Shown: positions 11,061-40,321 of the stretch, piece after piece
Numbering within the stretch: the stretch's first letter is position 1
Layout of the letters: every line of letters starts with the position of its first letter
IMG/VR virus record: IMGVR_UViG_3300041964_000090
Coordinates: 1-40,321 of that record
Strand: one strand, 5' to 3'
DNA: 40,321 bases
Origin: a virus
The notes under the pieces: generated by a model
The model's database searches: none
What the model saw: only the letters and a program-made list of their open reading frames with translations
Told to the model about the DNA's origin: nothing
Position numbers and translations under genes: made by a program

Positions 11061-11156
11061 CATCGAATAGCTAGGCGAAGCGTTTTGGGAATAGCCCGCT
11101 GTGGTATCCACGCCCACTAGCGTCTTGTTTTTCATTTTTCAGAACGAGTTGGATTC

Positions 11157-13085: not shown

Positions 13086-13156
13086 GAAGGGGCAATGTAT
13101 ATTAATAAAGGCTCAGTCGGTAATTGTAGGATGTCCTATATGTGTGCGATTGAGAA

Positions 13157-13420
13157 TGAGTGGATACATTCATCAGGTTGGTTGGTATGACGGATTTGAT
13201 GATACTGATGGTAGGTAAATTTTGATAGTTTTTTCCGGACCATCAGTTATTGCGGATCGCGTTGAATCGTGCGCAGTTTTGCTAACGGCGGATTTTTTAG
13301 TTTGCGTCATGGACAAGTCTCCCCCTCGTCGGGCAGGCGTTGGTACATATGCGGGAGGTACTTGTTGATAGTTCAAATGACTTCTGTAGATGGACTTAGG
13401 TATATACCGGTCCAGACCCG
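13157..13420 (+). pseudogene. Noisy inverted copy (pass 2) of the small gene at 14525-14779
   Basis: GATGATACTGATGG (13197-13210) and GCGGATCGCG (13251-13260) match the complement of about 14675-14745. The end is not resolvable. From 13420 to 13930 nothing recognisable remains beyond a mirror of 13960-14520. Confidence 0.6.
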
Positions 13421-13929
13421 TCGTCGCGGTCGTTCGAGCAGAAATTGTGCGAGGGGAACGAGAATGCGGGGCGGCCGGTTTTACTTCATGCCGTGTGGTT
13501 ACTGTTGAACTTGGTTAGTTTCTTGTTGTGAGCGAGTTGGCGTGCGGCGGCAGTGATATCGGTGCGATTAAGCGACGAGTGTATGTATCTTTTTGATAGT
13601 CTGTTCATTCTTTGTCGATGCACTGACGGATGGTGTTGTTTACAGGGCTTCATTAGATGGTTCGGGTAATTTTTCTTACTTTGGTTGAGTTGAGAAGGAT
13701 GGATAGTGCCTCTCGCTTTTCGGTGATTCGCGCCATTTGCAATCGAACATGGTGTTTTGGCTGGTTTAGCGCATAGCGTGCGATCCAGAGTTTCTCCGGC
13801 CAAGAAGTTATAGGTACTTGGTCGTCGTGTTGAGATTTTTGCTTCGCTTTGTGAGATTGTGTTCGCCTATGCTGACGTGGATTTGGTTAGCATTCCTCGA
13901 TCAGAGTCCTGCCGGTATGCATGCGATGC

Positions 13930-13975
13930 GTTCGCGCTCTTCTACTTCTTCGGGAGGAGGAGTATATGTTTATCG
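13930..13975. other. Fold-back junction 2, between passes 2 and 3
   Basis: Symmetry between 13187 and about 14740 puts the second centre near 13955. The right arm (about 13975 on) resembles the start of the window: both contain GCATTGAGTCCG, at 17-28 and at about 13980. About 30 bases around CGGGAGGAGGAG (13951-13962) have no evident counterpart on either arm and could be a leftover adapter or hairpin linker. Noise prevents an exact boundary. Confidence 0.55.
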
Positions 13976-14520
13976 CTGAAGCATTGAGTCCGAAGGAATC
14001 TTCGAGACAGGCTATTCACTTCTCATCGTCCAGATTGGCGAACTCTTCTTCACTAAGTCTCGTTATTAGCGCATCAAGAATAACAACCTAAGCGGTAGCA
14101 CTACGGCCGGCTAGATGCGGGCCCGCGGCGCGTTTTTAGCCCCTGTTAACCCCATGTCCATGGTTATGGAACGATTCAATAGTAATAGCGAGAGATATAG
14201 CCATTAATTGCCTATCGCTTCATTTTATTGACTGTCTTTTTCTCGTTCATATGCAAGTAGGGCAAAGTTTCATAACTTCCCGCTTGCTTCGCAATTTATT
14301 GAACAGACTTTACTTCAAAGGCCGTCAGAACGTCGGTCGCTTAAAGTAGCATCGTTCATCAAGCCTGCCGCATAGATCTCGCTCTAACAAACGAAACCGA
14401 TTCATATCAACAAACTTCATCCTCGGCTGGCCGTTTAGCAGCAGACTATGGTTTTCGTCCTAATACTCCGTACTCTTGTCCTGCCGCCCTTGACAGAGAT
14501 GAGGTATGATTAACGTAATA
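13960..14520. other. Low-quality start of pass 3; no gene seen
   Basis: This stretch aligns loosely with 1-560 (for example GCGCG, then TTTAACCCATG-like text at 150-190 and 14130-14155) but both versions are noisy, so the true sequence cannot be recovered here. No frame stays open with recognisable protein. Clean sequence starts at about 14520. Tail-chaperone and tape-measure genes would be expected further left in a genome with this order, but they are not visible. Confidence 0.7.
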
Positions 14521-14524
14521 TTCT

Positions 14525-14779
14525 TTAGTACCTATCGGCTCCCGTGTGTGGTCCAGTTGAACCTAATCCTAACATGGTAGTTGGAGGTGGCTTCTGTGCA
14601 CCGCATGTATTGGGGAGGGCCTTGTCGCCCTTAGCCTCCTTTTTGAAGACCTGTGCCTTTTCTGCCGCACGTTTAATCGCGTCCGCATTAACGGATGGTT
14701 CAGGACTTAACGTAATACCTTCACCATCAGTATCATCAACATCCGTAATACCATCCAACCCTGTTGTTTCGTCTGCCAT
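14525..14779 (-). CDS. Hypothetical protein, 3' end unreliable
   Basis: The product is not recognised. The best start is the ATG at 14779 (MADETTGLDG), with GGAGAC four bases upstream; an in-frame ATG at 14791 has no such site. The first 53 or so residues are acidic and then Lys/Ala-rich, like a short helical protein. The last 30 residues are unlike the rest and lie where base quality collapses, so the true C-terminus is probably lost to a frameshift. It follows the 716-residue virion gene by about 70 bases. A tail-assembly chaperone is possible at this position but nothing in the sequence proves it. Confidence 0.5.
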   Translation of the reverse strand: MADETTGLDGITDVDDTDGEGITLSPEPSVNADAIKRAAEKAQVFKKEAKGDKALPNTCGAQKPPPTTMLGLGSTGPHTGADRY

Positions 14780-14850
14780 ATAAGTCTCCATTCCGAAAAT
14801 AATATTGGTCCATCCTTCTATTACCCCGGAATGAGCCTGTATTATTATGC

Positions 14851-17001
14851 CTATTGAACGGAATCCGTGGAACCTGTCACGATTCTTCCTACGGAACCGT
14901 GATGGTCTACACTATCCTGAATGTTATAAGAACCAGTAAGTACCCTTGTTCCATCACCTTCATCATATACCCAACGAGATAATAGTTCGTTTTCCGGTAT
15001 ATTTGCCCCGTTCAAGAAAGTTCTGCCGGTAAGATATGGGGCTTGGAGCCTGAAACCCTGAACCTCAAAAGCAGTGAACCGAGCAATACGAGTATCATAA
15101 TACTCAGGGTTTGTTTCTGGTGTGCCTCGATAATAAATCTCGTAATCATCCGCGATAACAGTTCCCTGCGGGGGAGTAATCCGGAATACCCGGCGAAGTC
15201 CTCCCGCGCTCGATAACTCTTGACGCAAGAAGAACCATCCCGCATTAACATCCCCTCCACCACTGGCATACTTAATGGCAACCGGGGCAGACTGACTTCT
15301 TCTTTTGATTAACCAATCTACGTTATTCAGGTCAACCCCTGTTATTGCCGCCATATCCGCATGACCGGTGACTATTATGGGGCTGGCTTCACCAACGAAG
15401 GCTCTTTGCGCCTGTCTTGTGGTAAAGAAGAACCGGAGAGGGTGCATGGACCTGACGGAGTTTGAAATATCCAGAATGAAGTTGGCATTACGGTCTATCC
15501 TTTCGGGAACATACATTTCAAACGAGTTCTCGCCCATTCGGGTAATTCTCCAACCATTCGCATTCAATGGAACGCCAGCAGGAGCAACTCCTCCAAGTAA
15601 TCCTCCCGCGATAATTGTCCCTGTATCAATATCCCTGACAGCCCAATAATCATAAGGATATAAAGCGGCAGGCACGCCTTTGCGAATCAGTAGCGGAGTA
15701 AATACCGTTTGTTGACCTGGATAAACGATAGGAGGTCGAATGAACTCGAAGAATACCGAGGTTTTAACGAATGGTCCAGAAAGAGCCGTGTCTGTCTTGT
15801 CGTATAACGATATTCTCATTTCAAAGGAATCGCCCACGGACGGGTTGAATCCCTCGGCACGATACATTATCTTGACGTGGGTAATCATCGAACGATTCTC
15901 ATTCATCCAAAACCCGCCGTCTATACGATAGTTATCCATAGTTTCCGTCACGAATGGTGCCGGATAAAAATGTTGATAAGTACCGTTAGACTGATACAGA
16001 GAATAAGGAGAACCGTTCTTGAATATCTCAATCTTATAATTGGCACCCACTTCCGTATCGCTGCCTATATCGAGCACAGGTTCAGGAGGCGCGGGTGGCG
16101 CGACCTCAATCGGCGCTGATGGCGGCGGATAGTTCGGAGGCAGAGGCGTAGGTGGAGATGGTGGAGGGGGTGGATTATCCCCACCGCCGCCACCGCCCCC
16201 GCCGTCATCATCGGGAGGGGGAGGTGGGGGGTCGTCCCCACCACCGCCACCGCCGCCGCCACCGCCGCCGCCACCGCCGCCGCCACCGCCGCCGCCACCG
16301 CCACCGCCGCCGCCACCGTCGTCATCCTTTTTTTCTTCGGGTGGAATGGCGTCGAGTTCCATTTCCCCATTTTTCAACGTGAATCGTCGTGCCGTAAATA
16401 TCCTTTCGGTTTCCGGTTTGGCAATAAGTCCTCCCGTGGATGGTGCGGGGAAGGATGTATCTTGCTGATAGATTGGAGTGGTGTTTACGGGACCGCTAAT
16501 GATTCTTGTGGGAGTCGCGGATGTACCAATATACAATGCCGGAACCGTTACGGAGTATCTGGCACCGATTAGTTTAGCCTGTTTAAGCAGAGGAATCCGG
16601 TAAGGAGACGTACTGGATGGTGGTACCGGGGGTGGCGGTGGCGGCGCTACGGGAGGGGGCGCAGCCGGTCCACAGATAAAGGTCAGGGTAAAGGAACCTG
16701 TCTGTCCTTGATACGAACTGGAACATTCGATGATGTATGTTCCCGGTGCTCCTGTTGTGGTGTTAATGCTTGATGTGTTGCCACCATCACCCACAGCCAT
16801 GCCCATGTTACTCGGGTTGTATAAGACAATCCGAGTATCCATACCTGCCGAGTTCATGTATATGCCAACAGGCACATTATATTCGGTCGTCGTAAACTCG
16901 TAGAACTCAGCCAGATAACCACTCCCATAGTTCATAGAGTGACCATGCGAGTTAGTTATTGTTCCGGCAAGTGTTTGACCGCAGACAATTGGAATAGGCA
17001 C
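14851..17001 (-). CDS. Virion-associated protein with PPC-like domain and polyglycine/polyproline hinge
   Basis: The protein has 716 residues and a GTG start; the only ribosome-site candidate is a weak GGGATG. Residues 5-110 resemble a bacterial pre-peptidase C-terminal (PPC) beta-sandwich: CGQTLAGTI at the start, then TRIVLYNP, and YIIECSSSYQGQTGSFTL at the end. Residues 111-130 are proline-rich. Residues 229-255 are 27 glycines in a row flanked by aspartates, followed by a six-proline run, eight glycines and five prolines. The remaining 420 residues look like beta-rich domains without a recognised family. It lies directly downstream of the tube-like gene behind a terminator, so it is probably a tail or adhesion component. 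The hinge would give a long flexible or rod-like spacer between two globular parts. The glycine codons are GGC/GGT-rich, so the count may vary between genomes or be miscalled. Confidence 0.8.
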   Translation of the reverse strand: MPIPIVCGQTLAGTITNSHGHSMNYGSGYLAEFYEFTTTEYNVPVGIYMNSAGMDTRIVLYNPSNMGMAVGDGGNTSSINTTTGAPGTYIIECSSSYQGQTGSFTLTFICGPAAPPPVAPPPPPPVPPSSTSPYRIPLLKQAKLIGARYSVTVPALYIGTSATPTRIISGPVNTTPIYQQDTSFPAPSTGGLIAKPETERIFTARRFTLKNGEMELDAIPPEEKKDDDGGGGGGGGGGGGGGGGGGGGGGGGGGGDDPPPPPPDDDGGGGGGGGDNPPPPPSPPTPLPPNYPPPSAPIEVAPPAPPEPVLDIGSDTEVGANYKIEIFKNGSPYSLYQSNGTYQHFYPAPFVTETMDNYRIDGGFWMNENRSMITHVKIMYRAEGFNPSVGDSFEMRISLYDKTDTALSGPFVKTSVFFEFIRPPIVYPGQQTVFTPLLIRKGVPAALYPYDYWAVRDIDTGTIIAGGLLGGVAPAGVPLNANGWRITRMGENSFEMYVPERIDRNANFILDISNSVRSMHPLRFFFTTRQAQRAFVGEASPIIVTGHADMAAITGVDLNNVDWLIKRRSQSAPVAIKYASGGGDVNAGWFFLRQELSSAGGLRRVFRITPPQGTVIADDYEIYYRGTPETNPEYYDTRIARFTAFEVQGFRLQAPYLTGRTFLNGANIPENELLSRWVYDEGDGTRVLTGSYNIQDSVDHHGSVGRIVTGSTDSVQ

Positions 17002-17026
17002 AATTTCATCCCGTTCTGAATAATGA

Positions 17027-17063
17027 TAAAAAAGCCGCTGTGGTCGTGGATACCACAGCGGCT
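17027..17063 (-). terminator. Rho-independent terminator after the tube-like gene
   Basis: A perfect 12-bp stem (17033-17044 with 17052-17063, AGCCGCTGTGGT) has a 7-base loop. It is followed on the minus strand by a run of six T. It would end or reduce transcription between the tube-like gene and the 716-residue gene. Confidence 0.9.
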
Positions 17064-17096
17064 ACTCCCCAAACGGCTTCGCCGTGATATTCGATG

Positions 17097-18431
17097 TTAC
17101 GGCAGGCTATAAGAGGTACCCGCGTTAGCCGGAACAACCGGGATAGCAACCGATGGCAGGATGATGTTGGCGTTGGTTTCACCATTCACCACCTCAATAT
17201 CGAAGTCTGTACCGAGAACGGCGTCATACATAGGAGTACAAGTAACTCTTTGCATGATAGCGTCTCTTCCCGCAACAGGCTGTCCAACGGCGGAATATAC
17301 CGCTCGATACAACCGGACATTCAACTCATTGATATAACCGGCAGCATTTTCAGGTGCGCTGATTCTCAATTCCACTTGCGATGGGCGAATAGCCATCGTC
17401 AAACCATACGGCGCGACCGTTGCCGAAGATTGACCGAAGTACGCCTTGAACTCACGGTCTGTGGAGAAGTACACAGTGGCTTCCATACGAACTTCCGAGC
17501 CACGGCTATAGTGTCCCATGCCACGATAACCGTCCAATTCGTCTACTCGCTCCAACTGTTTATCAATGTTGATTTCAACGTCCTGAACACCAGCCCATAA
17601 AGAACCGTCCTGAACCATCCTGGCACTTACGGCAGGATAGTGCTCAAGCGTATCAACCCCCGCTGTATCAAGACCGGTATCGGCTTCCACGTCATACCGC
17701 AACTGGTGAACACCCCAAACGTTCGCATTCACGAACACCGGACGGTCCTGCGTCTTTCGTACCGAAAAGGTAAGTCGCCCTACACGACAGCCCGTAGTTG
17801 CAAAGTAGTATGGACCCTTCTGTTCGGTAATTGTGAACGGGATAAAGCCAAACGTATTCTTCCAAAGGTGACTATTACGCGCGGGAGGTCCCGCAATAGC
17901 CGTAGTCACAGGAGCGCCAAGCGTTCCACATAACAATTTACCCAATGGACCTTCGGGAGTAATGTTCACCGACACGTCACCGGCAACCTGAACGGCACCC
18001 ACAACAGCCTTCCGGAACTGTGAAGGCGAGTTGAAAAGGCTATCGGCGAATACCGCAGGCGCTTCCGTTACAAGGTCACTCGAAGCGTATTCTAATCTTT
18101 TTTGAGCCTTAACCGGTTGTGCGAATACCGATTCGAGACCAATCCCGATTTTTGTGGCGGCTCCGATATTAACTGAACTCAATGGCATGATTGTATCCTC
18201 ATCTATCTGTGCCCGCCTATAACCGGGCGTCAACTCTACGATATTCGACCACGGTGATGTTGTTCCCGTATCTATATCAAGGCGTCTGACCTTATAAAAG
18301 TACGTTCTGCCCGATATTACGGGCACATCAGAGTAGTAAACTCTTGCATTATCCGGGGCTGTGGCAAACAGTGTGAAGTCCAGGTCTCCAACGCCGTTGA
18401 CACTGCGCCATAACTCCTGAACTATCGGCAT
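17097..18431 (-). CDS. Probable tail tube protein with N-terminal FN3-like domain
   Basis: The protein has 444 residues. The first 75 resemble a fibronectin type III domain (VYYSDVPVISG, YFYKVRRLD, SPWSNIVELTPGY). From residue 82 (MPLSSVNIGAATKIGIGLES) the sequence changes to a pattern typical of major tail tube proteins: a small start domain mentioning the virion-wide component, then long beta-rich segments. The ATG at residue 82 has GATGAGGAT six bases upstream, so a shorter product of about 363 residues could also be made; the first ATG at 18431 has only a weak AGGGG. The gene lies after the tail-terminator-like gene, where tube genes usually sit. No sheath gene is seen beside it, which favours a siphovirus. 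A tube subunit or another abundant tail protein would both fit. Confidence 0.6.
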   Translation of the reverse strand: MPIVQELWRSVNGVGDLDFTLFATAPDNARVYYSDVPVISGRTYFYKVRRLDIDTGTTSPWSNIVELTPGYRRAQIDEDTIMPLSSVNIGAATKIGIGLESVFAQPVKAQKRLEYASSDLVTEAPAVFADSLFNSPSQFRKAVVGAVQVAGDVSVNITPEGPLGKLLCGTLGAPVTTAIAGPPARNSHLWKNTFGFIPFTITEQKGPYYFATTGCRVGRLTFSVRKTQDRPVFVNANVWGVHQLRYDVEADTGLDTAGVDTLEHYPAVSARMVQDGSLWAGVQDVEINIDKQLERVDELDGYRGMGHYSRGSEVRMEATVYFSTDREFKAYFGQSSATVAPYGLTMAIRPSQVELRISAPENAAGYINELNVRLYRAVYSAVGQPVAGRDAIMQRVTCTPMYDAVLGTDFDIEVVNGETNANIILPSVAIPVVPANAGTSYSLP

Positions 18432-18463
18432 TTCAAACCCCTATTTATTTTATTTTCTGTCCT

Positions 18464-18568
18464 CTTGAGTCTTCCGAGACTCATCTTGAGTCTTCCGAGA
18501 CTCATCTTGAGTCTTCCGAGACTCATCTTGAGTCTTCCGAGACTCATCTTGAGTCTTCCGAGACTCAT
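18464..18568. repeat. Five tandem 21-bp repeats, each a small hairpin
   Basis: The unit CTTGAGTCTTCCGAGACTCAT occurs five times with period 21, with the GAGTCT starting at 18467, 18488, 18509, 18530 and 18551. Each unit folds on its own: GAGTCT pairs with AGACTC across a 4-base loop. The array fills the gap between the 140-residue gene and the tube-like gene. It has no unique spacers, so it is not a CRISPR array. It could act as RNA processing or stability hairpins, a weak terminator array, or a protein-binding site. Confidence 0.95.
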
Positions 18569-18597
18569 TTTGCCACAAGCACGCGCGTTTTTTATTT

Positions 18598-19020
18598 TCA
18601 GTCGTTCTGACCCGCTGTAGACTGAATGGCTGAACTCATCTGTTCTACCGGAACAGGTTCATCATCCGGCTTTGACACGTCACCACGCATAATCGCCTGC
18701 CCGCCCGCACTGGCACCACCCTCCGGTGAAACCGTTGCATTCGGAGAGATTAACGGCAATGCTTCACTATCCCCATCATCAAGTTTGCCTCCATTTGGAC
18801 CGCTATACACACAAATACGGTCCTGAACCAAACGATTTGCAAACGAACGGTTCACTTCATTGCTTCGTGGAGACACATTATCGGGAACAATAGTCAAAAC
18901 GTTACCTGGAATCAACAATAATCCTGGATGAGTTTCTTCTGCTGGTATAATTGACCCACTATCTTCCAATCCGTAAACGATGTGGGTGTAGTTATTCGAG
19001 TTTTCTGATTTCTTTGCCAT
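18598..19020 (-). CDS. Hypothetical neck/tail-region protein
   Basis: The protein has 140 residues and no recognised domain. The N-terminal half is compact (THIVYGLEDSGS, LLLIPGNVLTIVP) and the C-terminal half is Gly/Ser/Asp/Pro-rich and probably disordered. An AGGAGA site lies a few bases upstream of the ATG at 19020. It is 17 bases downstream of the tail-terminator-like gene and is followed by the tandem hairpin array, so it probably belongs to the same neck/tail transcript. Confidence 0.75.
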   Translation of the reverse strand: MAKKSENSNNYTHIVYGLEDSGSIIPAEETHPGLLLIPGNVLTIVPDNVSPRSNEVNRSFANRLVQDRICVYSGPNGGKLDDGDSEALPLISPNATVSPEGGASAGGQAIMRGDVSKPDDEPVPVEQMSSAIQSTAGQND

Positions 19021-19037
19021 TTCAATTCTCCTGATTA

Positions 19038-19508
19038 TTAAACTCTGTCAGTGGTTACTAACTCAATGACAGTAGTTGACCACCGCGTATTTTGAGAACG
19101 ATGATACGAACTCAAAGGGTCGGAAAAACGCATATCCCGCCAACCGCCGTTGCCGCCAACCGTGCGATGCTTCATCAACGTTTTGCGTAGTTTTTCAGTT
19201 CTATCGGCTAATAAAGCCTTCGCTTCAACGGATTGTGCCCTGTTTTCAGCCGGGGTATCACCACTCTGAGCGTCAAAGACGTAAATCTTGATACCTAATC
19301 TCACTAATAGTCTAAAAGATGTGCCTAAAGATTCATCAATGATGGCGTCCTCATAAAGAACACAAACAAGTCTTGGAGATTCGTCTTCTGATATTGCTTC
19401 CGGGTCATCCGTTTCTATATCTCCGATGAAGTTGTTCGCATAATCAAAGTCTCGGTATTCCTCCAACGTGGTGATGAACTTATTTTGAATATCTGTTACG
19501 AGTGCCAC
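19038..19508 (-). CDS. Putative tail terminator / tail completion protein
   Basis: The protein has 156 residues. The start is GTG at 19508, preceded by AGGAGG nine bases upstream, and it overlaps the end of the virion morphogenesis gene. The sequence is a mixed alpha/beta fold with a central LLVRLGIKIYVFDA strand pair and a C-terminal VIELVTTDRV strand. No named family is certain. Its place, after the morphogenesis gene and before the tube-like gene, is where the tail terminator sits in many siphophages. The function is inferred from position and size. Confidence 0.6.
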   Translation of the reverse strand: MALVTDIQNKFITTLEEYRDFDYANNFIGDIETDDPEAISEDESPRLVCVLYEDAIIDESLGTSFRLLVRLGIKIYVFDAQSGDTPAENRAQSVEAKALLADRTEKLRKTLMKHRTVGGNGGWRDMRFSDPLSSYHRSQNTRWSTTVIELVTTDRV

Positions 19509-19993
19509 TTATATCTGCCTCCTAAACCTCTTAGTGTATGTTCAATATCTCTTCCCACCGCACGCTCTATTTCGACAATGCTCCGGTCTTCCACATTGAT
19601 GAACGGTCTTGCGGGAATATGGTCGTTGCCTTCCTGGTGAACAGCCATACGAGGGTCATCCACACCCATGACAATCTGTCTCCCCGTAAAACTAAAAGCA
19701 CTACCCGGAACACCCGGTCGCAAAGCGGTCGCAGCCTTCTTCATCGCCCCGGTATCCGTCAACGGAGGACCGTCTTTGCTTTTGACACGGCGTTGTCTTG
19801 TTTGGGGCTGAATATCATCCCACGGGTCCCCTTCGGGACCTCCGCGTTCAAAGTCAGCCTTGATTTGACGCGATATTACCCTTGCAGCCGCCATGACGCG
19901 TTTCTTTGAACCGGCGCTCAAGGAAACAGCCAGTTCTTGTAACCCGGAACGGACTTCTCTGACTCCTTCAAGTTCAAAAGCAAGGTCTAACAT
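19496..19993 (-). CDS. Phage virion morphogenesis / tail completion protein (gpS or HK97 gp10-like)
   Basis: The protein has 165 residues from the ATG at 19993, chosen because GGAGG lies five bases upstream; an in-frame ATG at 20014 lacks one. It shows the usual pattern of this family: an amphipathic N-terminal helix, KKRVMAAARVISRQIKADF, a basic linker with W, LTDTGAMKKAA, then a beta segment ending in VHQEGNDHIPARPFINV. The HQ.G and RPF motifs are typical. These proteins help complete the tail or join it to the head. The start abuts the preceding neck gene and the end overlaps the next gene, which suggests translational coupling. Confidence 0.8.
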   Translation of the reverse strand: MLDLAFELEGVREVRSGLQELAVSLSAGSKKRVMAAARVISRQIKADFERGGPEGDPWDDIQPQTRQRRVKSKDGPPLTDTGAMKKAATALRPGVPGSAFSFTGRQIVMGVDDPRMAVHQEGNDHIPARPFINVEDRSIVEIERAVGRDIEHTLRGLGGRYKWHS

Positions 19994-19994
19994 G

Positions 19995-20348
19995 TTATCC
20001 TCCAACCGCGTCACATACCAGAATGCCTCTTACGGGAATATCTTTGAACTTCTCGTAAAAAGTTCTCCGGATGGTATAAGAAATCTTATCGTTCACAAAC
20101 TTCTTATTCCTCAGTCCAATGATATTCTCGTAAGGAGATACCTGAAACACCGTAGGTTGTGCATTTTGTGGGTCTACAAGGTCTCTGGGAACAAGACGTT
20201 GTAAGGTCTGGTCATCGTTTATGATGACACCCTTCATCGTTGAATTGTCAAACGAAAGCGTATTGCCGTATTGCTTGATTGTGTAATCAATATACGCCGC
20301 TTCTTCATCAACGTTTATCTCCCAATCATCACGGAAAAAAGCAGGCAT
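19995..20348 (-). CDS. Putative head-closure (stopper) or head-tail joining protein
   Basis: The protein has 117 residues (MPAFFRDDWEINVDEEAAYID). The start is the ATG at 20348, sharing one base with the stop of the connector-like gene (TAATG), so translation is probably coupled; an upstream in-frame ATG at 20519 lies inside that gene and is rejected. It has an alternating beta pattern (FQVSPYENI, KISYTIRRTF, IPVRGILVCDAV). The family was not recognised. The role is inferred from position between the connector-like and virion morphogenesis genes. Confidence 0.65.
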   Translation of the reverse strand: MPAFFRDDWEINVDEEAAYIDYTIKQYGNTLSFDNSTMKGVIINDDQTLQRLVPRDLVDPQNAQPTVFQVSPYENIIGLRNKKFVNDKISYTIRRTFYEKFKDIPVRGILVCDAVGG

Positions 20349-21151
20349 TAGCGAAGTCTCCTTCCGCCCCTGCGGTGTCCCGTATAGGAGGGATAAAACA
20401 TCTTGCCGAACAAAGAACCAGGGTCTCTGGCTGCCTCTTCCCGAGTGGGATTGACTATATGTACACCCCCTAAACCACCCATGCCACTCCTCGCCTCTTC
20501 TAAAGATACAGCAACACAAGATACACCCTTCATTGCTTCACTCGCGGCGGAAGTCGCATGACCCTGTACCTGCTTATAGTCCACACCCTCTTTGCGTGTC
20601 TTTTCGATAGGACCTAACGTCAGTTTAGTTATCGTTGTATTGCCTAACAGAGCAATTATGGAGGGATTAGCCGCCAATACCCCCGCAGCAGTGATAGATA
20701 ACGCTTCATCAAATGCTATCTGGTCCGGTAGTGATAGATTGGCATATCCGCCCAACGTAGTTGTGACACAAGGATATTGTCTTAGCAGTTTTCTATATGC
20801 CGAAGCCAGCGCGGGGTCAATATCTTCTTCTCGAAGCCTGTCATTCGAGTCGCCCATGAGATTCCGAATGCGAGCATAAACATCCGTCCATGCAACGAAA
20901 TAGATTTCTGGACGGGGTGTTTGTTCTCCACCCGAAAAAACCATCCATTCGACAAAGAGGATTCCGGGATGAGAGCCAACGTATTCGGCGCTTAACTCAT
21001 GTTCTTTCGCACTTTCGGGAGGACTTACCAGAACAAGAGGCTCTTCCGTACTGCCATTTGAGGCGGATATATGAACAGTTGCATTATCAATAATGAACGG
21101 CGTATTCTGATACTCCCAAAACCTCAGAATACGCCGTTCATTATGTAGCAT
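20348..21151 (-). CDS. Putative head-tail connector/adaptor protein
   Basis: The protein has 267 residues. The ATG at 21151 has AGGGG about eight bases upstream. The middle has NLMGDSNDRLREEDIDPAL followed by AYRKLLRQYP, a pattern of short acidic and helical stretches seen in connector proteins of the gp6/gp15 type. The N-terminal part (NTPFIIDNATVHISA, LVLVSPPESAKEHEL) looks like a beta domain, and the C-terminus is basic (GHRRGGRRLR). The first 60 coding bases form a perfect inverted repeat, listed separately. It is followed with one-base overlap by the putative stopper gene. The function is moderately supported by order and weakly by sequence. Confidence 0.6.
   Translation of the reverse strand: MLHNERRILRFWEYQNTPFIIDNATVHISASNGSTEEPLVLVSPPESAKEHELSAEYVGSHPGILFVEWMVFSGGEQTPRPEIYFVAWTDVYARIRNLMGDSNDRLREEDIDPALASAYRKLLRQYPCVTTTLGGYANLSLPDQIAFDEALSITAAGVLAANPSIIALLGNTTITKLTLGPIEKTRKEGVDYKQVQGHATSAASEAMKGVSCVAVSLEEARSGMGGLGGVHIVNPTREEAARDPGSLFGKMFYPSYTGHRRGGRRLR
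21091..21143. promoter_or_regulatory. Perfect 20-bp inverted repeat at the start of the connector-like gene
   Basis: TAATGAACGGCGTATTCTGA (21091-21110) is the exact reverse complement of 21124-21143, with a 13-base loop. It begins eight bases inside the gene, so the mRNA would carry a very stable hairpin just after the start codon. This may limit translation initiation or protect the transcript. It is present, though damaged, in both noisy copies. Confidence 0.9.
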
Positions 21152-21189
21152 GATAGTGCCCCTGACTTACATCGTTATGGTAATTTGGC

Positions 21190-21726
21190 TTACTCGGAAA
21201 GACCAATATAAGTCGAAGCGGTAAGGCTGTCTCCTGGTGCCAATGTACGAGTCGTTTGAAGAGCCGCCGAAGACAACAGTTTACCAGCAGTACCCGTAGC
21301 GACCGTACACAAGAACAAGGCAACTGCTGCCGCCCAGTTTGTACCACCAGAGTTCGTAAAAGTTACGTTGTTCGATGTTGCGCGCCAGTCACCCGTAACC
21401 TGAGACATTGTGAAACCAGTCACCGTCGAAACAGCCTGTCGAGCATAACCGGTTCCCGTAACTTCCGTAATCGTGGCGAGTGTATCGGCTTCCGCGCCAA
21501 CAGCAGTTTGACGCAATCCGAAGTGAAGGTTAGCAGGCGGTGCTCCAAAACCAGCGTAGTCGGTATCAAAGTACGCCGACAACATGGCTTGCTCCCCTTC
21601 GTCATGTAGCAGATTGCCAACGTCCGAACCTTCCCACAAAATGTCGCCACGATAATTGCGGTGCTCGAAGTTCCAATAACTTCGCCAAAAACCCTGCGGC
21701 TTAAGAATACCAAGTTCTCTTAGCAT
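21190..21726 (-). CDS. Putative virion structural protein
   Basis: The protein has 178 residues. The N-terminus (MLRELGILKPQGFWRSYWNFEHRNYRG) is aromatic-rich; residues 45-90 include LLHDEGEQAMLSAYF; the C-terminal 80 residues are beta-rich with repeated Thr/Ser/Gly and FTNSGGTNWAAAVALF, ending in APGDSLTASTYIGLSE. This kind of C-terminal pattern appears in small phage structural or decoration proteins, but I cannot name a family. AGGAG lies seven bases upstream of the ATG. It follows the giant repeat protein across a 211-base gap with a strong hairpin. Confidence 0.65.
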   Translation of the reverse strand: MLRELGILKPQGFWRSYWNFEHRNYRGDILWEGSDVGNLLHDEGEQAMLSAYFDTDYAGFGAPPANLHFGLRQTAVGAEADTLATITEVTGTGYARQAVSTVTGFTMSQVTGDWRATSNNVTFTNSGGTNWAAAVALFLCTVATGTAGKLLSSAALQTTRTLAPGDSLTASTYIGLSE

Positions 21727-31712: not shown

Positions 31713-33266
31713 CTATAATCTTCTGCGTTTCCCTTTGGACCGAACAAGTCTTACTTTAGAACGATTGTTCAGTCCGTTCCCATTATCAAGTTTGCCTAAG
31801 TTGTTGTTTTTTCTTCTTAAATCTCCATCAATTTTGCTTGCGTCGTCGTTATTTGGTAATTCTGGCTCGATTTTGTCGTTTGACGCCCTTCCTCGCTGTC
31901 CATTTACGGGTTGCTTGGAATCTCCAACCGCTTCTGTGCCGGTTATTTCTATGGAGGCGTCGTCTTGTGAAATCCAACCCTCATCGCGTTTGAACGCCGC
32001 AGTCTTCGCTTCGATACTTGCCGCTCTTGCCGCAGTAAGTCTTTCTTCCGTAGCAATTGCGTCAAACTCGAAGATAATATCCTGCATACGAACTTCTCGG
32101 TCGTACCCCATCGCCCATAATCCAACGTATAGGGAACGCTGGATTATATGCCGAGCCATATCTTGAAACCGCTTCAAGCCGCTATTGAAGATAGCCATCT
32201 GAACGGTGCCGTGAGTTTCAGTGGTACCTTCATTGCTTCCCATAAACACGGGAAGCATTTTAAGAGCAGCATAGATTTCCTTCTTACAAAGTTCGGCGAC
32301 ACCTGTAATTGGGAACGAAGTATTACCCCTGCTTTGAGAAGTCAGTTTAAGAAGGTCAAGGTGAGCAATGAGAGCGTCGGGGTCACGTTTCCCCTCCATT
32401 CGATATGCGTCAGCAAAACGTCGAACTTGTGCAAGCGCCCAGGCGAAGAACTCATCGTGGTAACGGACCCTCTCATCGGCGTCCATCTGTTCCCACGCTT
32501 TATATAACCCTTCCCATGACACTTCACCATCAATAAATCCCCAAGCAGAGTGGTGAAGGAATACCTGTAGTTCCTGATAGAATCTTAACCAGAACGGGAT
32601 AATTTGGAGAGCAGGAGCAACCGGCGCTCTACCATATAAATCATCATCCACGCCGATATAGGTGATAAGGTTTGGGTTAAGTTCTCTCCATCTTTCTTTT
32701 GCTCTGGGTTGTAACTGTCCGATTCTCCATCGTCGTCTATTCGTATCTTCTTCGTCATATCTAAACTCAATCGTGGTAGGTTCAACCGCGACAATATCAT
32801 CCAGACCATTCAATTCCGGGGTAAGAACGGTCTCGGCACACATAGCGCCCTTCATATAAGCCGATAACAAAAGGGTGTTGATAAAGGAGTTAGGACCACC
32901 CATTGCGCCGGGGATTTCACTATCCACACCCCGGTTGGCACGACCAAACATTTCATTGACAAGACGCGTCCCGTCAACGTCAATCTTGCCATCAGGGTGA
33001 CGCAGTTCCAAACTCCATCCAGGATTAGCAAGACGTAAGACGTTATGCAGTGCCAAGCCCACGTCTGGTGATATTTCGGGAAGAATGTCGAGCAGGAGAT
33101 AAGGGTCTATTGCCCACCAGTCAATGTTTTCCAGTGTTACCTGTACTTTAGACCGGCGTGGGATTCTGCCGCGCATTTCAGGAGGACCTAAAGTGGTTCT
33201 GCCAATTCCACCTAATCCCGCTGAAACTGCTTGAGATAGTATATTTGCGCTTCCTGCTTCTGCCAT
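31713..33266 (-). CDS. Portal protein
   Basis: The protein has 517 residues, the usual portal length. It has early TLENIDWWAIDPYLLLDI, a WSLELRHPDG region, then TIEFRYDEE, RRRWRIGQLQP and a helical part with AWGFIDGEVSWEGLYKAWEQM. Residues 330-380 include the stretch LLKLTSQSRGNTSFP, then ELCKKEIYAALKMLPVFMGSNEGTTETHGTVQMAIF, typical of DUF935/SPP1 gp6-like portals. The C-terminus is basic (RSKVRLVRSKGKRRR). It lies 13 bases downstream of the TerL gene, the normal place. It forms the dodecameric channel at one capsid vertex. Confidence 0.85.
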   Translation of the reverse strand: MAEAGSANILSQAVSAGLGGIGRTTLGPPEMRGRIPRRSKVQVTLENIDWWAIDPYLLLDILPEISPDVGLALHNVLRLANPGWSLELRHPDGKIDVDGTRLVNEMFGRANRGVDSEIPGAMGGPNSFINTLLLSAYMKGAMCAETVLTPELNGLDDIVAVEPTTIEFRYDEEDTNRRRWRIGQLQPRAKERWRELNPNLITYIGVDDDLYGRAPVAPALQIIPFWLRFYQELQVFLHHSAWGFIDGEVSWEGLYKAWEQMDADERVRYHDEFFAWALAQVRRFADAYRMEGKRDPDALIAHLDLLKLTSQSRGNTSFPITGVAELCKKEIYAALKMLPVFMGSNEGTTETHGTVQMAIFNSGLKRFQDMARHIIQRSLYVGLWAMGYDREVRMQDIIFEFDAIATEERLTAARAASIEAKTAAFKRDEGWISQDDASIEITGTEAVGDSKQPVNGQRGRASNDKIEPELPNNDDASKIDGDLRRKNNNLGKLDNGNGLNNRSKVRLVRSKGKRRRL

Positions 33267-33279: not shown

Positions 33280-35409
33280 TTAAAAGATACCCAAACTCTC
33301 ACCACTTATAATACCGGAGTAGCCCATTTCGTCTTCATAATCACGATAACCATCGTAACTTCTGGCTCTTGGGTTTCTTCTTTCAAAAGCAGTGCCGGGT
33401 AAATCATCCGGCAGTGCTATATGACCCGCACTTCTTGCAATATTCGCGGATGATAAGCGGAATGAAGAGGCATGACTATCAGCAAACGCAAGGTTCAGAG
33501 CGTCAGCGTCATCCGGAGAACGACCGATACGTTTCTTGGTAACGACTTTGCGTTCAACGACACGGCGTCCGTGGTCATCAAGTGTCCACTCAGGTGCCTT
33601 TAACTGTTTTTCTAAAATATCCTTCGACTCTTTGGATAGTCTCGAAAGGTCTACACCGCCCTTTGCTGCAAGTGCCGCTGTGTGGAACCAGAGTTCGCTA
33701 CGCCGTTTGAAATACTTCTTACCGTCTCTGGCATTGGAACTGGCTCTTACCGGAACAAAGTTATAACCCTTCTTCTGGTCAACTACGCCACCGCCAACAC
33801 CATCGTCGTCAATCTTGCAACGAACAGAGGTAGGCTGCATTCCAATTTGCCCACCCCAATGAGCACATAAGTCTTTAAGGTGTCGTTCTGTGCGGTCTGT
33901 CAACCATCCGTTATAAGTTTCGTGGTCGAGAACCGCGCTGCCACGACGTATAATGAACGAAGTGTTGTCAGAACCTTCGCGAGCAACGTCACAACCTATT
34001 TCAACCGGTTCGTCTGGAATGGGCTGTTGTACCAATGCGTTTTCCCACATCATTTCGGTCCATACGGAGTTGCTACCCTGTGTTGGGAATAATCCGAGCA
34101 CACGAGATTCAAACAGGGGACCGGGGCGATACCAACGGGGATGATTCTCCTCGTTATCCGGGAATGCTTTATTGCCGGGAGGAGGATATAGGAAGTCGTT
34201 TACGGTAGCCTCTGAAGCCGAGATAGGGGTACACCACGGGTCGGCTCCACGTACCATATCGTCTACCCACTGCAACTGTACAGCGCCAGGGAATACCGGT
34301 GGTAAACCTTGTAATTCGGCAAGAATGTTGGGATGGTCGAGCGCGGATATACGAACAACGTCCCACTTACCGCCTTTATATTCTTGATATACACGGGAAG
34401 ATATGTTGGTAGGGTTAAAGATAGCCAACATATAGCGACCTTCGGACAACATCATACCGCTGGCAGCGTCCCAGAACGGGGCAAGGATACCGGTTGCCTC
34501 ATCGAACAGGATAAGCATGTGTTTATTGTGTCTACCCTGAAACGATTCAGCGTTAGCGGCTGTATATCCCAATGCGAAGTGTGCCGCATCGGTACCCATA
34601 TAAGGGGTCTTCGGTTGGATATAAGGGTTATCCGCCCATTGGGTACGAACTTCCTTCCATAGCACCTGAGACACCTGTGAGGCGGTAGGAGCGGTCGTGA
34701 GGGTTGTTCCGGGGTCAAAGCACATGAATGACCAGAGTACGAGACCGCCTGAAAGATAAGTATTGTGCTCGTACAGGTCGGTAAGATAGGTATGATATTG
34801 TGGAACTTCTACACCTACCGTTTGTTTCATCCCTGCGTAGTCAACGCCTCGAACTGCTTCCCATCTACATCCAGGTGGCGGTGCGTTATCGTTCCACTTC
34901 CCCTTGTATGTGCCCGTGGGGTCTGCGACGGCGATTCTGTCGCCCGCCTTAATCTTGATTACAGGGCACCACCCGACGCCATCCTTCCATAACGGGTGTT
35001 GGGCGTTTCTTTCTACCGTCTTTCCACTATCGGTGGTAACTTTGTATACTGCTTCTATCTTATTTAACTCGGCACGGGCACTTGTGACGATGTGGGTGCC
35101 AGTTATGGGGTCAATGGTCTTAACATCGAACCCTTTACCTACGAGGTCTCCGAACTGCCGTGGTTTTGACTCTCCGGGAAGTGTTATAACGTCGTCATGG
35201 GCAGCACACTTTCCGACTCCGTGGGAAGCAGGCACGAGTACGCGTCTCTTCCCCCCGTTAATGAGTTTTTGAGCGACTTCTATCTGCTTGCTCCACCACG
35301 TTACCGGTGAGCCATCAGCGTTTCTAAGGTTCTTGTGGATGAAAAAGTACGGGTCCTGCTGGTAAAGCCGCAGGAGTTTTTGACTCTTCAAACTCTTCAA
35401 TAAGTGCAT
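33280..35409 (-). CDS. Terminase large subunit interrupted by a mini-intein
   Basis: The ORF codes for 709 residues. Residues 68-216 are an intein (listed separately), and removing it leaves a 560-residue terminase. The joined exteins restore a Walker A motif, SHGVGK joined to TYLSGG. Walker B is ILFDEA (300-305), the coupling motif is IFNPTN (330-335), and the nuclease acidic residues are in GCDVAREGSDN (D474), KIDDDGVGGG (D534-536) and SPDDADALN (D633, D634, D636). This is the ATP-driven packaging motor and endonuclease. The ATG at 35409 overlaps the TerS-like gene by 86 bases; a downstream non-ATG start is possible. The portal gene follows 13 bases later. Confidence 0.9.
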   Translation of the reverse strand: MHLLKSLKSQKLLRLYQQDPYFFIHKNLRNADGSPVTWWSKQIEVAQKLINGGKRRVLVPASHGVGKCAAHDDVITLPGESKPRQFGDLVGKGFDVKTIDPITGTHIVTSARAELNKIEAVYKVTTDSGKTVERNAQHPLWKDGVGWCPVIKIKAGDRIAVADPTGTYKGKWNDNAPPPGCRWEAVRGVDYAGMKQTVGVEVPQYHTYLTDLYEHNTYLSGGLVLWSFMCFDPGTTLTTAPTASQVSQVLWKEVRTQWADNPYIQPKTPYMGTDAAHFALGYTAANAESFQGRHNKHMLILFDEATGILAPFWDAASGMMLSEGRYMLAIFNPTNISSRVYQEYKGGKWDVVRISALDHPNILAELQGLPPVFPGAVQLQWVDDMVRGADPWCTPISASEATVNDFLYPPPGNKAFPDNEENHPRWYRPGPLFESRVLGLFPTQGSNSVWTEMMWENALVQQPIPDEPVEIGCDVAREGSDNTSFIIRRGSAVLDHETYNGWLTDRTERHLKDLCAHWGGQIGMQPTSVRCKIDDDGVGGGVVDQKKGYNFVPVRASSNARDGKKYFKRRSELWFHTAALAAKGGVDLSRLSKESKDILEKQLKAPEWTLDDHGRRVVERKVVTKKRIGRSPDDADALNLAFADSHASSFRLSSANIARSAGHIALPDDLPGTAFERRNPRARSYDGYRDYEDEMGYSGIISGESLGIF
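34762..35208 (-). other. Mini-intein (149 residues) inside the TerL Walker A motif
   Basis: The element starts with Cys68 (CAAHDDVITLPG, block A) directly after SHGVGK and ends with His215-Asn216, followed by Thr217 as the +1 nucleophile. Block B is TTDSGKTVERNAQHPLW (125-141) with the conserved His138, and block F is VPQYHTYLTDLYEHN (202-216). No LAGLIDADG or HNH homing endonuclease is present, so it is a splicing-only mini-intein. Insertion separates Lys67 from Thr217 of the ATP-binding loop, so the motor would be inactive until splicing. Inteins at this site fit the known preference for invariant active-site motifs. Confidence 0.9.
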
Positions 35410-36040
35410 CTATCTCTTCTTCGCTCATTTCGTTAATCTTGCCGACCGCTGGAACGGTTTTCGCGTCACCTCCACCCTCCGTTTGTGCCAAGTCAATCTG
35501 AGGTGTTTCGGTTGCGCTACGAGACAACTTAGTAGCAATGTCAACCACTTTTGGAACATCGCTCATCGTCCACTTAGCAGGGGCGATAGTAACCGTCTTA
35601 CCATCCTCTTGAATCGTCTTTTGAGTAATGGGGAAGGCAAGCATTGCACGCGCCTTCTTCAATAACTCCTGCGACAATTCCCACTCTTCTTCCCGTTGGG
35701 CACGGCGACGATTCGCCCATTCTTCCGCTTCCTTGTCCAAAGCCTTCTGCTTGGCGACTTCGGAAGCACGAGACATGTATCTATCGTACTCTTTAACTCG
35801 TTCTATCCACTTAAACTTTTCTCGCCAGTCGTTCCATGTACCATTAGCGGTCATATTTCTGTCGGTACTATTCTTATACTTTCGATAGGCGGCATTAACC
35901 GACCGCCTTCCATTATCATCGCGAGTGTCTCTATACAGACAAAACGCGTTGAAGGCTTCGGCACTCTCGTTATCCAGGCGATTGAAACTAATGTTTTCAA
36001 GGTCGTCGCCCAAGACTTCTTTTTGTTCCGTAATGCTCAT
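35324..36040 (-). CDS. Putative terminase small subunit
   Basis: The protein has 238 residues. The start (ATG at 36040) overlaps the ParB-like gene by four bases (ATGA). Residues 17-60 have the pattern seen in DNA-binding small terminases and homologues (FNRLDNESAEAFNAFCLYRD, SVNAAYRKYKNS, WNDWREKFKWIERVKEYD), then a long basic-acidic helix (90-135), and an acidic C-terminal region that may contact TerL. It lies directly upstream of terL. The call is by order and general pattern; a specific family is not certain. Confidence 0.7.
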   Translation of the reverse strand: MSITEQKEVLGDDLENISFNRLDNESAEAFNAFCLYRDTRDDNGRRSVNAAYRKYKNSTDRNMTANGTWNDWREKFKWIERVKEYDRYMSRASEVAKQKALDKEAEEWANRRRAQREEEWELSQELLKKARAMLAFPITQKTIQEDGKTVTIAPAKWTMSDVPKVVDIATKLSRSATETPQIDLAQTEGGGDAKTVPAVGKINEMSEEEIDALIEEFEESKTPAALPAGPVLFHPQEP

Positions 36041-36702
36041 AGATTAAGACGCCTTCGGATTTCCGCTACAACGATTTCCTTGCTAATATCCGGTATCTGA
36101 CACTCTAACTCAGCCGCCATATCTTGTTTGAGTTTAAGTTCCCAATCCTTGAACTCTTGTCTTTCGAGTATGAAACGATAAGGTCCTACCGCCACTCCTA
36201 AGTCTTCCTCATCCCCTTCTTCGCCGGGTGATTCTTCATCGCCCAAATCCGGGTCTTCTTCCTCGGTTTCCTCGGCTTCCGGGATTGCGTCGAGTAATGC
36301 TCGGAGTTCCTCATCTGTCCATAAGCCCTCCAATGGAACCCCTTCGGCTTCCATCCGCTTGATAACCTCAATATCCCAACCTTCGGCAAGTTCCGCCGCC
36401 CTGTTATCAAACAACGCAATGCGTGCCTTCATTACCGGAGTGAGATTCTTGCGTCTGACAGCGATTACCTCATCACCATCCGCGTCAACGATTCGCACCT
36501 TTTCCAAGCCCGCCTGTCCAGCCGCCTCAATCGTGGCATTACCTGCCAACACAACATTCTCTTCGTCTATGAGAACAGAACGTCCAAAGCCAACCTCTTG
36601 AATGGCGTCAGCAATCGTACCGACGTTCCGAGGATTATGCACACGAGCATTAGCCGGGTCCGGTATCAATTCGCCTAAAGATACGATTGTTTCTTCCGCC
36701 AT
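36037..36702 (-). CDS. ParB-like nuclease domain protein
   Basis: The protein has 221 residues. Residues 5-90 match the ParB/Srx-like N-terminal domain: VSLGELIPDPANARVHNPRN, TIADAIQEVGFGRSVLID, VLAGNATIEAAGQAG. These carry the usual N-R-H and G-N(H)-AT positions. Residues 95-125 form a helical extension with ALFDNRAAELAEGWD; 145-180 is very acidic; 185-221 is a helical C-terminus. Such proteins often sit next to phage terminase genes and may act in DNA binding or nicking during packaging. It abuts the previous gene (TAAATG) and overlaps the next by four bases, so it is in one translational unit. Confidence 0.85.
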   Translation of the reverse strand: MAEETIVSLGELIPDPANARVHNPRNVGTIADAIQEVGFGRSVLIDEENVVLAGNATIEAAGQAGLEKVRIVDADGDEVIAVRRKNLTPVMKARIALFDNRAAELAEGWDIEVIKRMEAEGVPLEGLWTDEELRALLDAIPEAEETEEEDPDLGDEESPGEEGDEEDLGVAVGPYRFILERQEFKDWELKLKQDMAAELECQIPDISKEIVVAEIRRRLNL

Positions 36703-37803: not shown

Positions 37804-38411
37804 TTAAGCGACGGTGAGTTCTCCCTCACCTGCATTCGGCGCTTCAACCTCTGGTTCAGTCTCGTCTCCACCAGTTTCCTCGCCCGGTTCCTCGACTACC
37901 GGTTCGCCACCGTCTTCGGCTACAACCGGTTCCGTTTCTCCACCAGTCTCGTCCACTACGGGGTCAGTTGCTTCGCCGGTCTCTCCACCGACTTCACCCT
38001 CTTCAACTACCGGCTCAGTCACCACCGGCTCGGTCTCGCCACCCTCTTCTTCACCCACTACCGGTTCAGGCATACCCGGCTCTTCTACCGGCTCTTCCGG
38101 TGCTGGTGCCGGTTCCACTTCGCCCGGTTCCGTCACAACCGGCTCTTCCGTCACGGGTTCCTCTGGCGCTGGTGCCGGTTCCGGGTCAGGGGTTGGGGTT
38201 GGCACAGGAGAGATTACCTCGTCCTCATCGGTAATACCCTGCGAAGAGTCCTGCTTCGCAATCGCTTCCAATTCTTCCAACAGGCTCTTGACTTCCTGGC
38301 TGTTCGGACGTGCCTTCAACAGACCAATAACCGCCAACAGTTTCTCGTCTTCCGAGCGTCCGCTTCACGGACCTTTGCTACCGCTTCCTTCAACGACTTG
38401 TAATTTGCCAT
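37804..38411 (-). pseudogene. Acidic Pro/Glu-rich protein with paralogous N-terminal module, one frameshift
   Basis: The ATG at 38411 (MANYKSLKEAVAKVREADAR) has GGAGGA upstream. The frame is lost near 38353, where CTTCCGAG lacks one C compared with CTTCCCGAG in the paralog at about 38590. Restoring it gives EDEKLLAVIGLLKARPNSQEVKSLLEELEAIAKQDSSQGITDEDE, closely matching the other copy. About 120 further residues are Pro/Glu/Val/Thr/Gly-rich (EPVVTEPGE and similar repeats), so the tail is disordered and strongly acidic. The single-base loss is probably a consensus error. Function is unknown. Confidence 0.75.
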
Positions 38412-38444: not shown

Positions 38445-38900
38445 TTACACGTCCAATTCGTCGTCTTCGTCTGTGATACCTGCCGCAGAGTCTTGTGCTG
38501 CCAACTCTTCCAATTCGTTCAGGAGTTCCTGGACTTCCTGTTCATTAGGACGAGCCTTCAACAGTTCGATAATCGCCAACAGTTTCTCATCTTCCCGAGC
38601 GTCGGCTTCGCGTACCTTCTGTACGGCTGCCTGTAGTTCCTTAAAAGTTGCCATCTGCTGTGCCTCCCACTTATTATTTTCTGCTGCGTGTTTATTAATC
38701 AGCCTACGCAGGCTTCTGACTGAGGAGCGTGTTAGCCCCTGTTCGATTTGTAAATCCGCGATTTGAGAAGATACTTCATACAGAGTATCCGTAATCTCGT
38801 CTAACCTACTCGTTAAATGGGCGTCGTCAAGCACACGCTGTTCGTCGCTTTGTGTAGCCAGCCACGCAACTATTTTCTGTAGGTTTGCTAACATAGTCAT
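38445..38900 (-). CDS. Coiled-coil protein with possible internal start, paralog of the acidic protein
   Basis: The ORF runs 151 codons from the ATG at 38900, which has GGAGG nine bases upstream. Residues 1-82 are helical (RVLDDAHLTSRLDEITDTLYEVSSQIADLQIEQG) and look like a coiled coil. At residue 83 a second ATG (38654, MATFKELQAAVQKVREADAR) has GGGAGG eight bases upstream, and from there the 69 residues match the N-terminal module of the neighbouring acidic protein. Both a 151- and a 69-residue product may be made. Function is unknown. Confidence 0.75.
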   Translation of the reverse strand: MTMLANLQKIVAWLATQSDEQRVLDDAHLTSRLDEITDTLYEVSSQIADLQIEQGLTRSSVRSLRRLINKHAAENNKWEAQQMATFKELQAAVQKVREADAREDEKLLAIIELLKARPNEQEVQELLNELEELAAQDSAAGITDEDDELDV

Positions 38901-39289: not shown

Positions 39290-39306
39290 TCTGTATACCC
39301 CGAAAA

Positions 39307-39377
39307 GCGGCGTGAGAGAATCGAACTCTCACAATCTGCTTGGAAGGCAGAGATTCTAACCGTTAAACTAACGCCGC
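39307..39377 (-). tRNA. tRNA-Gly (anticodon TCC)
   Basis: The 71-base sequence has a 7-bp acceptor stem (GCGGCGT with ACGCCGC), a TCTGC/GCAGA anticodon stem with loop CTTCCAA, and a T-arm GTGAG-AGTTCGATT-CTCAC-type. CCA is not encoded. It reads GGA codons. Confidence 0.92.
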
Positions 39378-39479
39378 GCTAAAAAACCATCCAAACACAG
39401 CATAAGCAACAGCGACGAGTATGAGTATACTCATCGCTATGATAACACACCCCACGCCATTGTCTGTGTGCCTGCCCAT
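39363..39479 (-). CDS. Possible small membrane protein (38 residues)
   Basis: An ATG at 39479 opens a 38-codon [13 protein letters not shown] followed by a hydrophobic stretch ([20 protein letters not shown]) that would form one membrane helix. The stop lies inside the tRNA-Gly gene. There is no clear ribosome-binding site. It also contains a perfect 14-bp palindrome, ATGAGTATACTCAT (39421-39434). It may be a real small protein or chance. Confidence 0.3.
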
Positions 39480-39524
39480 CATTGATATAATGCCCTAAAT
39501 CAAGGAGTTGCCAACTAACTCTAA

Positions 39525-39595
39525 GCACTGGACAGTCTCGAACCTGCAACCTGTTGTTTACAAGACAACTGCTCCACCAATTGAGCCACCAGTGC
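39525..39595 (-). tRNA. tRNA-Thr (anticodon TGT)
   Basis: The 71-base sequence has a 7-bp acceptor stem (GCACTGG with CCAGTGC), anticodon stem GTTGT/ACAAC with loop CTTGTAA, and a T-loop with GGTTCGAGA. CCA is not encoded. It reads ACA codons. Confidence 0.9.
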
Positions 39596-39610
39596 ATATA
39601 GTAGGTCAAA

Positions 39611-39680
39611 GCACCATGCAGTAATCGAAACTGCGTCACCAATTTACGAAAATGGCGTTCTACCACTAAACTAATGGTGC
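39611..39680 (-). tRNA. tRNA-Thr (anticodon CGT)
   Basis: The 70-base sequence has a 7-bp acceptor stem (GCACCAT with ATGGTGC) and T-arm GCAGT-TTCGATT-ACTGC. The anticodon stem CCATT/ATTGG has one T-T mismatch; its loop TTCGTAA gives anticodon CGT, which reads ACG. One base near the mismatch may be miscalled. Confidence 0.8.
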
Positions 39681-39688
39681 CTGAAACC

Positions 39689-40321
39689 TTAGAATATTCC
39701 GTCAAACTCTGCTGCAAGATTGTCAAACTTCGCAAACTTCGGTAGGAATGCCACTTCACCGTTCCCGTGGGACCGTTACGCTGTTTAGCAATGATAATCT
39801 CGGCTTCCTCAACCTCATTCTTACCGTCATCCTCTTCGTCCATCACGCTACCAGTAGCAACCATCTGCTTGCGCTCATAGTAGGCAGGACGATAGATGAA
39901 ACTCACAATATCCGCCTCTGCTTCAATCGCTCCCGATTCCCTCAAGTCCGAAAGCAATGGGCGCTTGTCCTCACGACGCTCTACCGCACGAGACAACTGA
40001 GACTATGCAATCACCGGTACCTTGAACTCGCGAGCGAGGTTCTTAACGCCTTTGACTATATCTGTTAGTTCCTGGTTCCGGTTCTCTCCATTACCCCTTT
40101 GCCGCCCGCATGAGTTGCAGGTAGTCAATAACAATCAAATCCAGACCGTGCCTTGCCGCAATCCTTCGACACCTTGAACGCATTTCGGATACCGTCAGGT
40201 CGGTACTGTCATCAATGAAAATCTGCGAATCCCATAGCCTATGTGTGGCGGATACAATATCTACCCATGCCGAATCATCTAACATGCCGGTACGAATGCG
40301 TTGAGCGTCTACGCGAGCCTC
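39689..40321 (-). pseudogene. dnaB: DnaB-type replicative helicase, C-terminal part, frame disrupted
   Basis: The coding part enters at the right edge of the window (EARVDAQRIRTGML), so the N-terminus is outside. It has Walker B region LIVIDYLQLM, then [65 protein letters not shown], and [14 protein letters not shown], ending [13 protein letters not shown] at 39689. Three lesions break it: an extra G in GGGG near 40100, an in-frame TAG at 40003-40005 where Leu is usual (VIA-stop-SQLSR), and a missing G near 39750 (AAGTGG where AAGGTGG restores frame). This is the phage replicative helicase. Being close to a contig end, the lesions are likely consensus errors, though decay cannot be excluded. 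Confidence 0.85.

Follow-up and report, generated by a model that had tools for sequence, protein, structure and literature searches.

The large terminase subunit (TerL) of a tailed phage very probably harbours an endonuclease-free class 1 mini-intein in its Walker A loop, with the course of splicing and the history that we propose below. The window, that is, the whole stretch of DNA analysed, is an entire IMG/VR virus record, linear and 40,321 bases long. Its minus strand carries a late module comprising small terminase, TerL, portal, major head protein, and neck and tail genes, within which the element occupies residues 68-216 of the TerL frame (Table 1). The initial annotation had placed a mini-intein here, between the Lys and Thr of Walker A, and its choice of ORF, coordinates and frame was right. 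Judged by sequence comparison, the element is a divergent new member of the known TerL Walker A inteins, a site and a kind that have both been published.

Table 1. Features of the interrupted terminase gene and its neighbours in the window
Feature	Position	Strand	Evidence
TerL precursor ORF, 709 aa	33280..35409	-	phrog_2 terminase large subunit, E 5.9e-25
N-extein, residues 1-67, up to and including Walker A ...SHGVGK	35209..35409	-	sequence, alignment
Putative class 1 mini-intein, residues 68-216, 149 aa, Cys1 to Asn149	34762..35208	-	HMM, alignment, model
Cys1, N-terminal nucleophile	35206..35208	-	invariant in intein alignment
Asn at block B:7 (T of TxxH), atypical	35005..35007	-	absent from 138 aligned block Bs
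Block B His (B:10, intein residue 71)	34996..34998	-	invariant in intein alignment
Gly in place of the usual Asp at block F:4 (intein residue 132), atypical	34813..34815	-	absent from 127 aligned block Fs
Penultimate His148 and terminal Asn149	34762..34767	-	invariant in intein alignment
C-extein, residues 217-709 and stop, first residue +1 Thr of Walker A	33280..34761	-	alignments
Small terminase	35324..36040	-	phrog_6299, E 2e-4
Portal protein	31713..33266	-	phrog_3753, E 4e-21

An interrupted Walker A motif and its empty-site relatives

The interrupted ORF is recognisable as a large terminase. Its phrog_2 match covers the part of TerL after residue 217, and residues G66, D303, E304, D474, D534, D633 and D636 occupy invariant columns; by the invariant columns of two TerL alignments, Walker B (LFDEA) and the acidic residues of the nuclease are intact in the C-extein. 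None of the Pfam terminase models matched the window TerL. A stretch of 149 residues interrupts Walker A precisely at the Lys67-Thr217 junction, opening with a Cys directly after ...SHGVGK and closing with ...YEHN directly before Thr217. When residues 68-216 are removed from the ORF in silico, the resulting product of 560 amino acids aligns in both of its extein parts with intein-free TerLs, a comparison that the initial annotation had called for, with 46-50% identity to the five nearest full-length sequences (46% for L017 of IMG/VR and 47-50% for the MAG loci L097, L098, L099 and L100). These empty-site relatives read H[SNA]VGKTH, as against HGVGK/C...HN/T in the window. An uninterrupted Walker A also occurs in five TerLs from phage records, namely vir525, Crosby, phiCD27, Molivia and, read separately from the other four, MT835568.

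Inteins at other places were seen in the course of these comparisons. One TerL relative (L061:1672-4293) has a large intein past Walker A, at the motif that aligns with TAP/T, and it ends in ...SGN/T instead of HN. The MAGs L192, L187, L178 and L190, which hold relatives of the window TerL, have inteins of their own in DnaB (at Walker A K/T), Dcd and GyrB.

Intein-like sequence and predicted fold of the insert

An intein HMM, built on the Hint portions of eight other, unrelated inteins, scored the insert at 31.3 bits; among 20,000 shuffles of its residues the highest score was 10.1 bits, so that the likeness to inteins goes beyond chance. In the curated libraries, Pfam Intein_splicing matched at E 0.042 (library of 24,736 models), two NCBIfam models, both for intein-bearing proteins, matched at E 0.001 (DnaB) and E 0.0045 (RtcB), and the only two PDB sequence matches, weak ones at E 0.08-0.09, were both to Pho RadA inteins. 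Taken alone, these library searches would argue only weakly for an intein. In an alignment with 19 IMG/VR P-loop inteins, Cys1, Asp5, block B His71, Gly77, His148 and Asn149 are conserved. Blocks B and F are joined only by a short linker, at the place where 19 aligned full-size inteins carry an insert, and block G is one residue shorter than in most inteins. No Pfam endonuclease model matched the insert; together with the length of 149 residues and the short B-F linker, this bears out the earlier statement that a homing endonuclease is absent, from which it would follow that the element can no longer home. Searches of phages and plasmids at E 0.1, and of IMG/VR with two queries, the entire protein and just the intein, found no relative of the window intein above about 25% identity, and it forms the longest branch of a small intein tree (FastTree). 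Most of the hits to a DNA pattern encoding HGVGKC, a hydrophobic residue and then Ala were primase-like proteins; none was a TerL.

The fold predicted for the insert is that of a Hint domain, as in class 1 inteins. AlphaFold gave pLDDT 86 and pTM 0.79 when supplied with an intein alignment, an input that biases the model towards the intein fold; the single-sequence model had a pLDDT of 35. When the PDB was searched with Foldseek, the 35 best matches were all inteins, with Ssp DnaB (E 1.3e-9, TM 0.81), Npu DnaB and Mtu RecA at the top. The Ssp DnaB and Mtu RecA mini-inteins (PDB 1mi8, 6frg and 3igd) have the predicted Hint fold in common with the insert at TM 0.79-0.81 by query length, although they reside in other host proteins and are 18-21% identical to it. 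The best viral fold match is TerL of Corynebacterium phage PotatoChip.

We give hardly any credence to the idea that these residues are a TerL-specific folded domain beside Walker A and no intein at all, which would account for the weakness of the matches to curated intein models. Intein HMM, splicing residues and fold are concordant, and Walker A could not form around a retained insert. Moreover, the TerL relatives, in which the initial annotation had suggested looking for the same 149 residues as a domain, lack such a domain in every case read. A group I or group II intron, or an assembly chimera, in place of a protein element is likewise extremely improbable. The contig does contain assembly artefacts (see below), but the insert lies outside the duplicated region, is in frame and free of stops, and is bounded by intein residues. 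An RNA intron was rejected because RNA folding was no better than that of shuffles (z -0.6) and Rfam gave no match.

Splicing residues and two atypical positions

The insert has a Cys nucleophile at position 1, and its terminal His148-Asn149 is followed by the +1 residue Thr217, as in class 1 inteins. The combination of hallmarks that marks class 3 (Trp at B:12, Cys at F:4, Thr at G:5 and a position 1 without nucleophile) was not found: Cys1 is present, F:4 is Gly, and Glu precedes the His-Asn pair. The set of splicing residues had been described as complete, which holds for the nucleophiles and for both catalytic His residues, but not for two assisting positions. Thr at B:7 is replaced by Asn, giving a block B of NAQH in which His71 is kept, and Asp at F:4 is replaced by Gly; the usual His of block F is present as His139. 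In tallies of fetched loci, whose counts are not independent, since overlapping loci and the sequences of the profile itself are among them, B:7 is Thr in 89 of 138 block Bs, Ser in 41, Ala in four, Glu in three, Gly in one and Asn in none, and F:4 is Asp in 119 of 127 block Fs, Cys in five, Ser, Asn and Val in one each, and Gly in none.

Thr at B:7 and His at B:10 are known assisting residues, and F:4, which is counted among the less conserved intein positions, is most often Asp, then Cys, then Trp (PMC4031507). With B:7 Thr and F:4 Asp both replaced, efficient splicing is not guaranteed. Engineered Asp-to-Gly changes at F:4 raise C-terminal cleavage in Mtu RecA (D422G), Npu DnaE (D118G) and gp41-1 (D107G), the effect in Mtu RecA being strongly pH dependent, with a more than 20-fold rise in cleavage rate from pH 8.0 to pH 6.0 (PMC9033041, PMC12245125). 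In the window intein, the two replacements may slow splicing, or favour C-terminal cleavage, relative to a canonical intein. Nevertheless, splicing is not necessarily impaired by an atypical assisting residue, since a phage RDF intein with a penultimate Gly does splice, and putting in His slows its splicing (PMC5050341).

Inteins at the same site in other terminases

By sequence, the insertion point corresponds to the 'classic' P-loop site TerL1-a of Kelley et al., which lies between the same Lys and Thr (PMC5050341). The TerL1-a inteins of mycobacteriophages and of a Kocuria rhizophila prophage are likened to the window intein by site and not by compared sequences, and their host TerLs belong to the terminase_1 group (PMC5050341), whereas the window TerL matches phrog_2. 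A search of IMG/VR with the pattern G-x-G-K-C-x-x-G-D-T found 111 stretches, and 75 motif ORFs, a part of them checked for completeness as inteins, were read from the 80 loci kept. In one TerL of the related phrog_5902 family (L212 of IMG/VR), the Walker A K/T site is likewise occupied by a class 1 intein, but one of full size: it carries an insert as large as an endonuclease, its block B reads SxxH, and F:4 is Asp. Inteins apparently of class 3, with neither Cys nor Ser at position 1 and with Cys at F:4, occupy the same TerL site in Streptomyces phage JustBecause, Microcystis phage Mwe-JY05 and Caulobacter phage phiCbK. In JustBecause (L005:625-2994) and Mwe-JY05 (L008:295-2955), whose records name no intein, we read Ala1, Cys at F:4, Thr at G:5 and a Lys/Ser site. 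The cyanophage Mic1 also has TerL inteins, for which splicing control over packaging has been proposed; they differ in being two in number, one with an endonuclease, and one of them sits in the nuclease domain (PMC7156551).

Gly at F:4 is natural in the TerL P-loop inteins of the Corynebacterium phages P1201, PotatoChip and Stickynote. The mini-intein of 134 residues in PotatoChip, Zion, C3PO and Stickynote is like that of the window in being of class 1, in its position at TerL Walker A K/T, in Gly at F:4 and in having no endonuclease. The TerL intein of P1201, of 358 residues and noted in its record as a hypothetical intein, is likewise of class 1 at Walker A K/T, with Gly at F:4. The context T[IV]GVE[VI] around this Gly is common to the Corynebacterium phage and window inteins, reading TIGVE[VI] in PotatoChip, Stickynote and P1201 and TVGVEV in the window. 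Given this recurrence, we dropped the notion that F:4 Gly is unique to the window intein or a sequencing error. For P1201, PotatoChip and their relatives there are records of complete phage genomes from bacterial hosts, so the residue appears compatible with infection. Both kinds of Corynebacterium phage intein are about 24% identical to that of the window, have SxxH versus NxxH in block B, and reside in TerL exteins without detectable similarity to the window TerL. A sister relation is unsupported by the small FastTree tree, and with identity this low and a tree that does not join the groups, the F:4 Gly may or may not be shared by descent. As an aside, the PotatoChip mini-intein (L335:2348-2749) and the full-size P1201 intein (L339:1501-2577) share this TerL site, are about 53% alike and form a natural pair without and with an endonuclease, both with Gly at F:4.

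Gene context and sequence quality

Next to the small terminase lies a ParB-like gene (36037-36702, minus strand; phrog_620, E 1.6e-21). Further along are a direct repeat of 135 nucleotides (38219-38353 and 38461-38595, 74% alike, 242 nucleotides from start to start) and three tRNA genes (Gly-TCC, Thr-TGT and Thr-CGT; 39306-39681, minus strand). At the right end, a fragment of a DnaB-like helicase (39700-40321, minus strand) is interrupted by an in-frame TAG and by a frameshift that follows ...LQLMRAAKG, lesions that reflect either sequence error or decay.

About 14 kb at the left end (693-14660) is an artefact, and much of it consists of error-rich duplicates. The stretch 14660-21270 recurs as a direct copy, rich in indels, at 693-7008 and in inverted copies at 7015-9513 and 10122-12111, a pattern such as a long read passing three times over one molecule would be expected to leave. 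The left 14.7 kb lacks ORFs of gene length, shows little codon periodicity and matched no Pfam model in any of the six frames; its poverty in ORFs is explained by the duplicated, error-rich sequence, and recoded stop codons were rejected as the cause. The duplication does not extend to the TerL region, and the TerL frame is clean. With long-read artefacts and a broken helicase in the contig, single-base errors or a defective phage nonetheless have to be considered.

A decaying intein that mostly cleaves rather than splices, in a defective or dying phage, is in our estimate quite unlikely. The loss of two assisting residues, the long branch of the window intein and the broken helicase would all suit such decay. 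Against this, the TerL frame is fully open with all of its TerL motifs intact, other late genes have long open frames, and F:4 Gly persists in Corynebacterium phages; the helicase lesions could be explained by uncorrected sequence of long-read type in the contig.

Proposed splicing and history

We propose that the 709-residue precursor would be unable to bind ATP, Lys67 and Thr217 being parted by 149 residues; the split makes a strong case for the initial annotation's view that splicing must precede ATP binding. The insert would fold as a Hint domain, whereupon Cys1 would attack the carbonyl of Lys67 (N-S shift), the N-extein would pass to Thr217 (transesterification), Asn149 would cyclise with the aid of His148, and an O-N shift would leave the 560-residue TerL with its SHGVGKT loop intact. 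The element is probably what remains of a homing intein after loss of the endonuclease. Imprecise removal of the element would kill an essential gene, which may account for its persistence, and with no endonuclease left it is probably kept by vertical descent.

We infer that splicing is most likely constitutive. The initial annotation had suggested that splicing could time packaging, a role put forward earlier for other TerL inteins, including those of Mic1 (PMC7156551, PMC5050341). A conditional intein, whose two atypical residues, F:4 Gly and B:7 Asn, would retard or gate splicing and so confine TerL maturation to a late stage or to particular pH or redox states, seems unlikely here. It would fit the cleavage promoted by engineered Gly at F:4, the same residue in the P1201 and PotatoChip TerL P-loop inteins, and the regulatory role already proposed for Mic1. 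Five terminase-type mycobacteriophage inteins, however, spliced readily in a reporter, which speaks against timing as the default, and the RDF intein tolerates an atypical assisting residue (PMC5050341). Similarly, there is only a slim chance that conditional splicing of a pH type times the maturation of the packaging motor and that phages of the P1201 type reached F:4 Gly independently.

Constitutive splicing remains the preferred reading of an element that adds a distant member without endonuclease to the TerL Walker A inteins, in a terminase family whose nearest relatives all have an empty site. Two seemingly separate groups of TerL inteins naturally have Gly at F:4, and would offer a test case for whether a residue that promotes C-terminal cleavage in engineered inteins may coexist with productive splicing in an essential phage gene.
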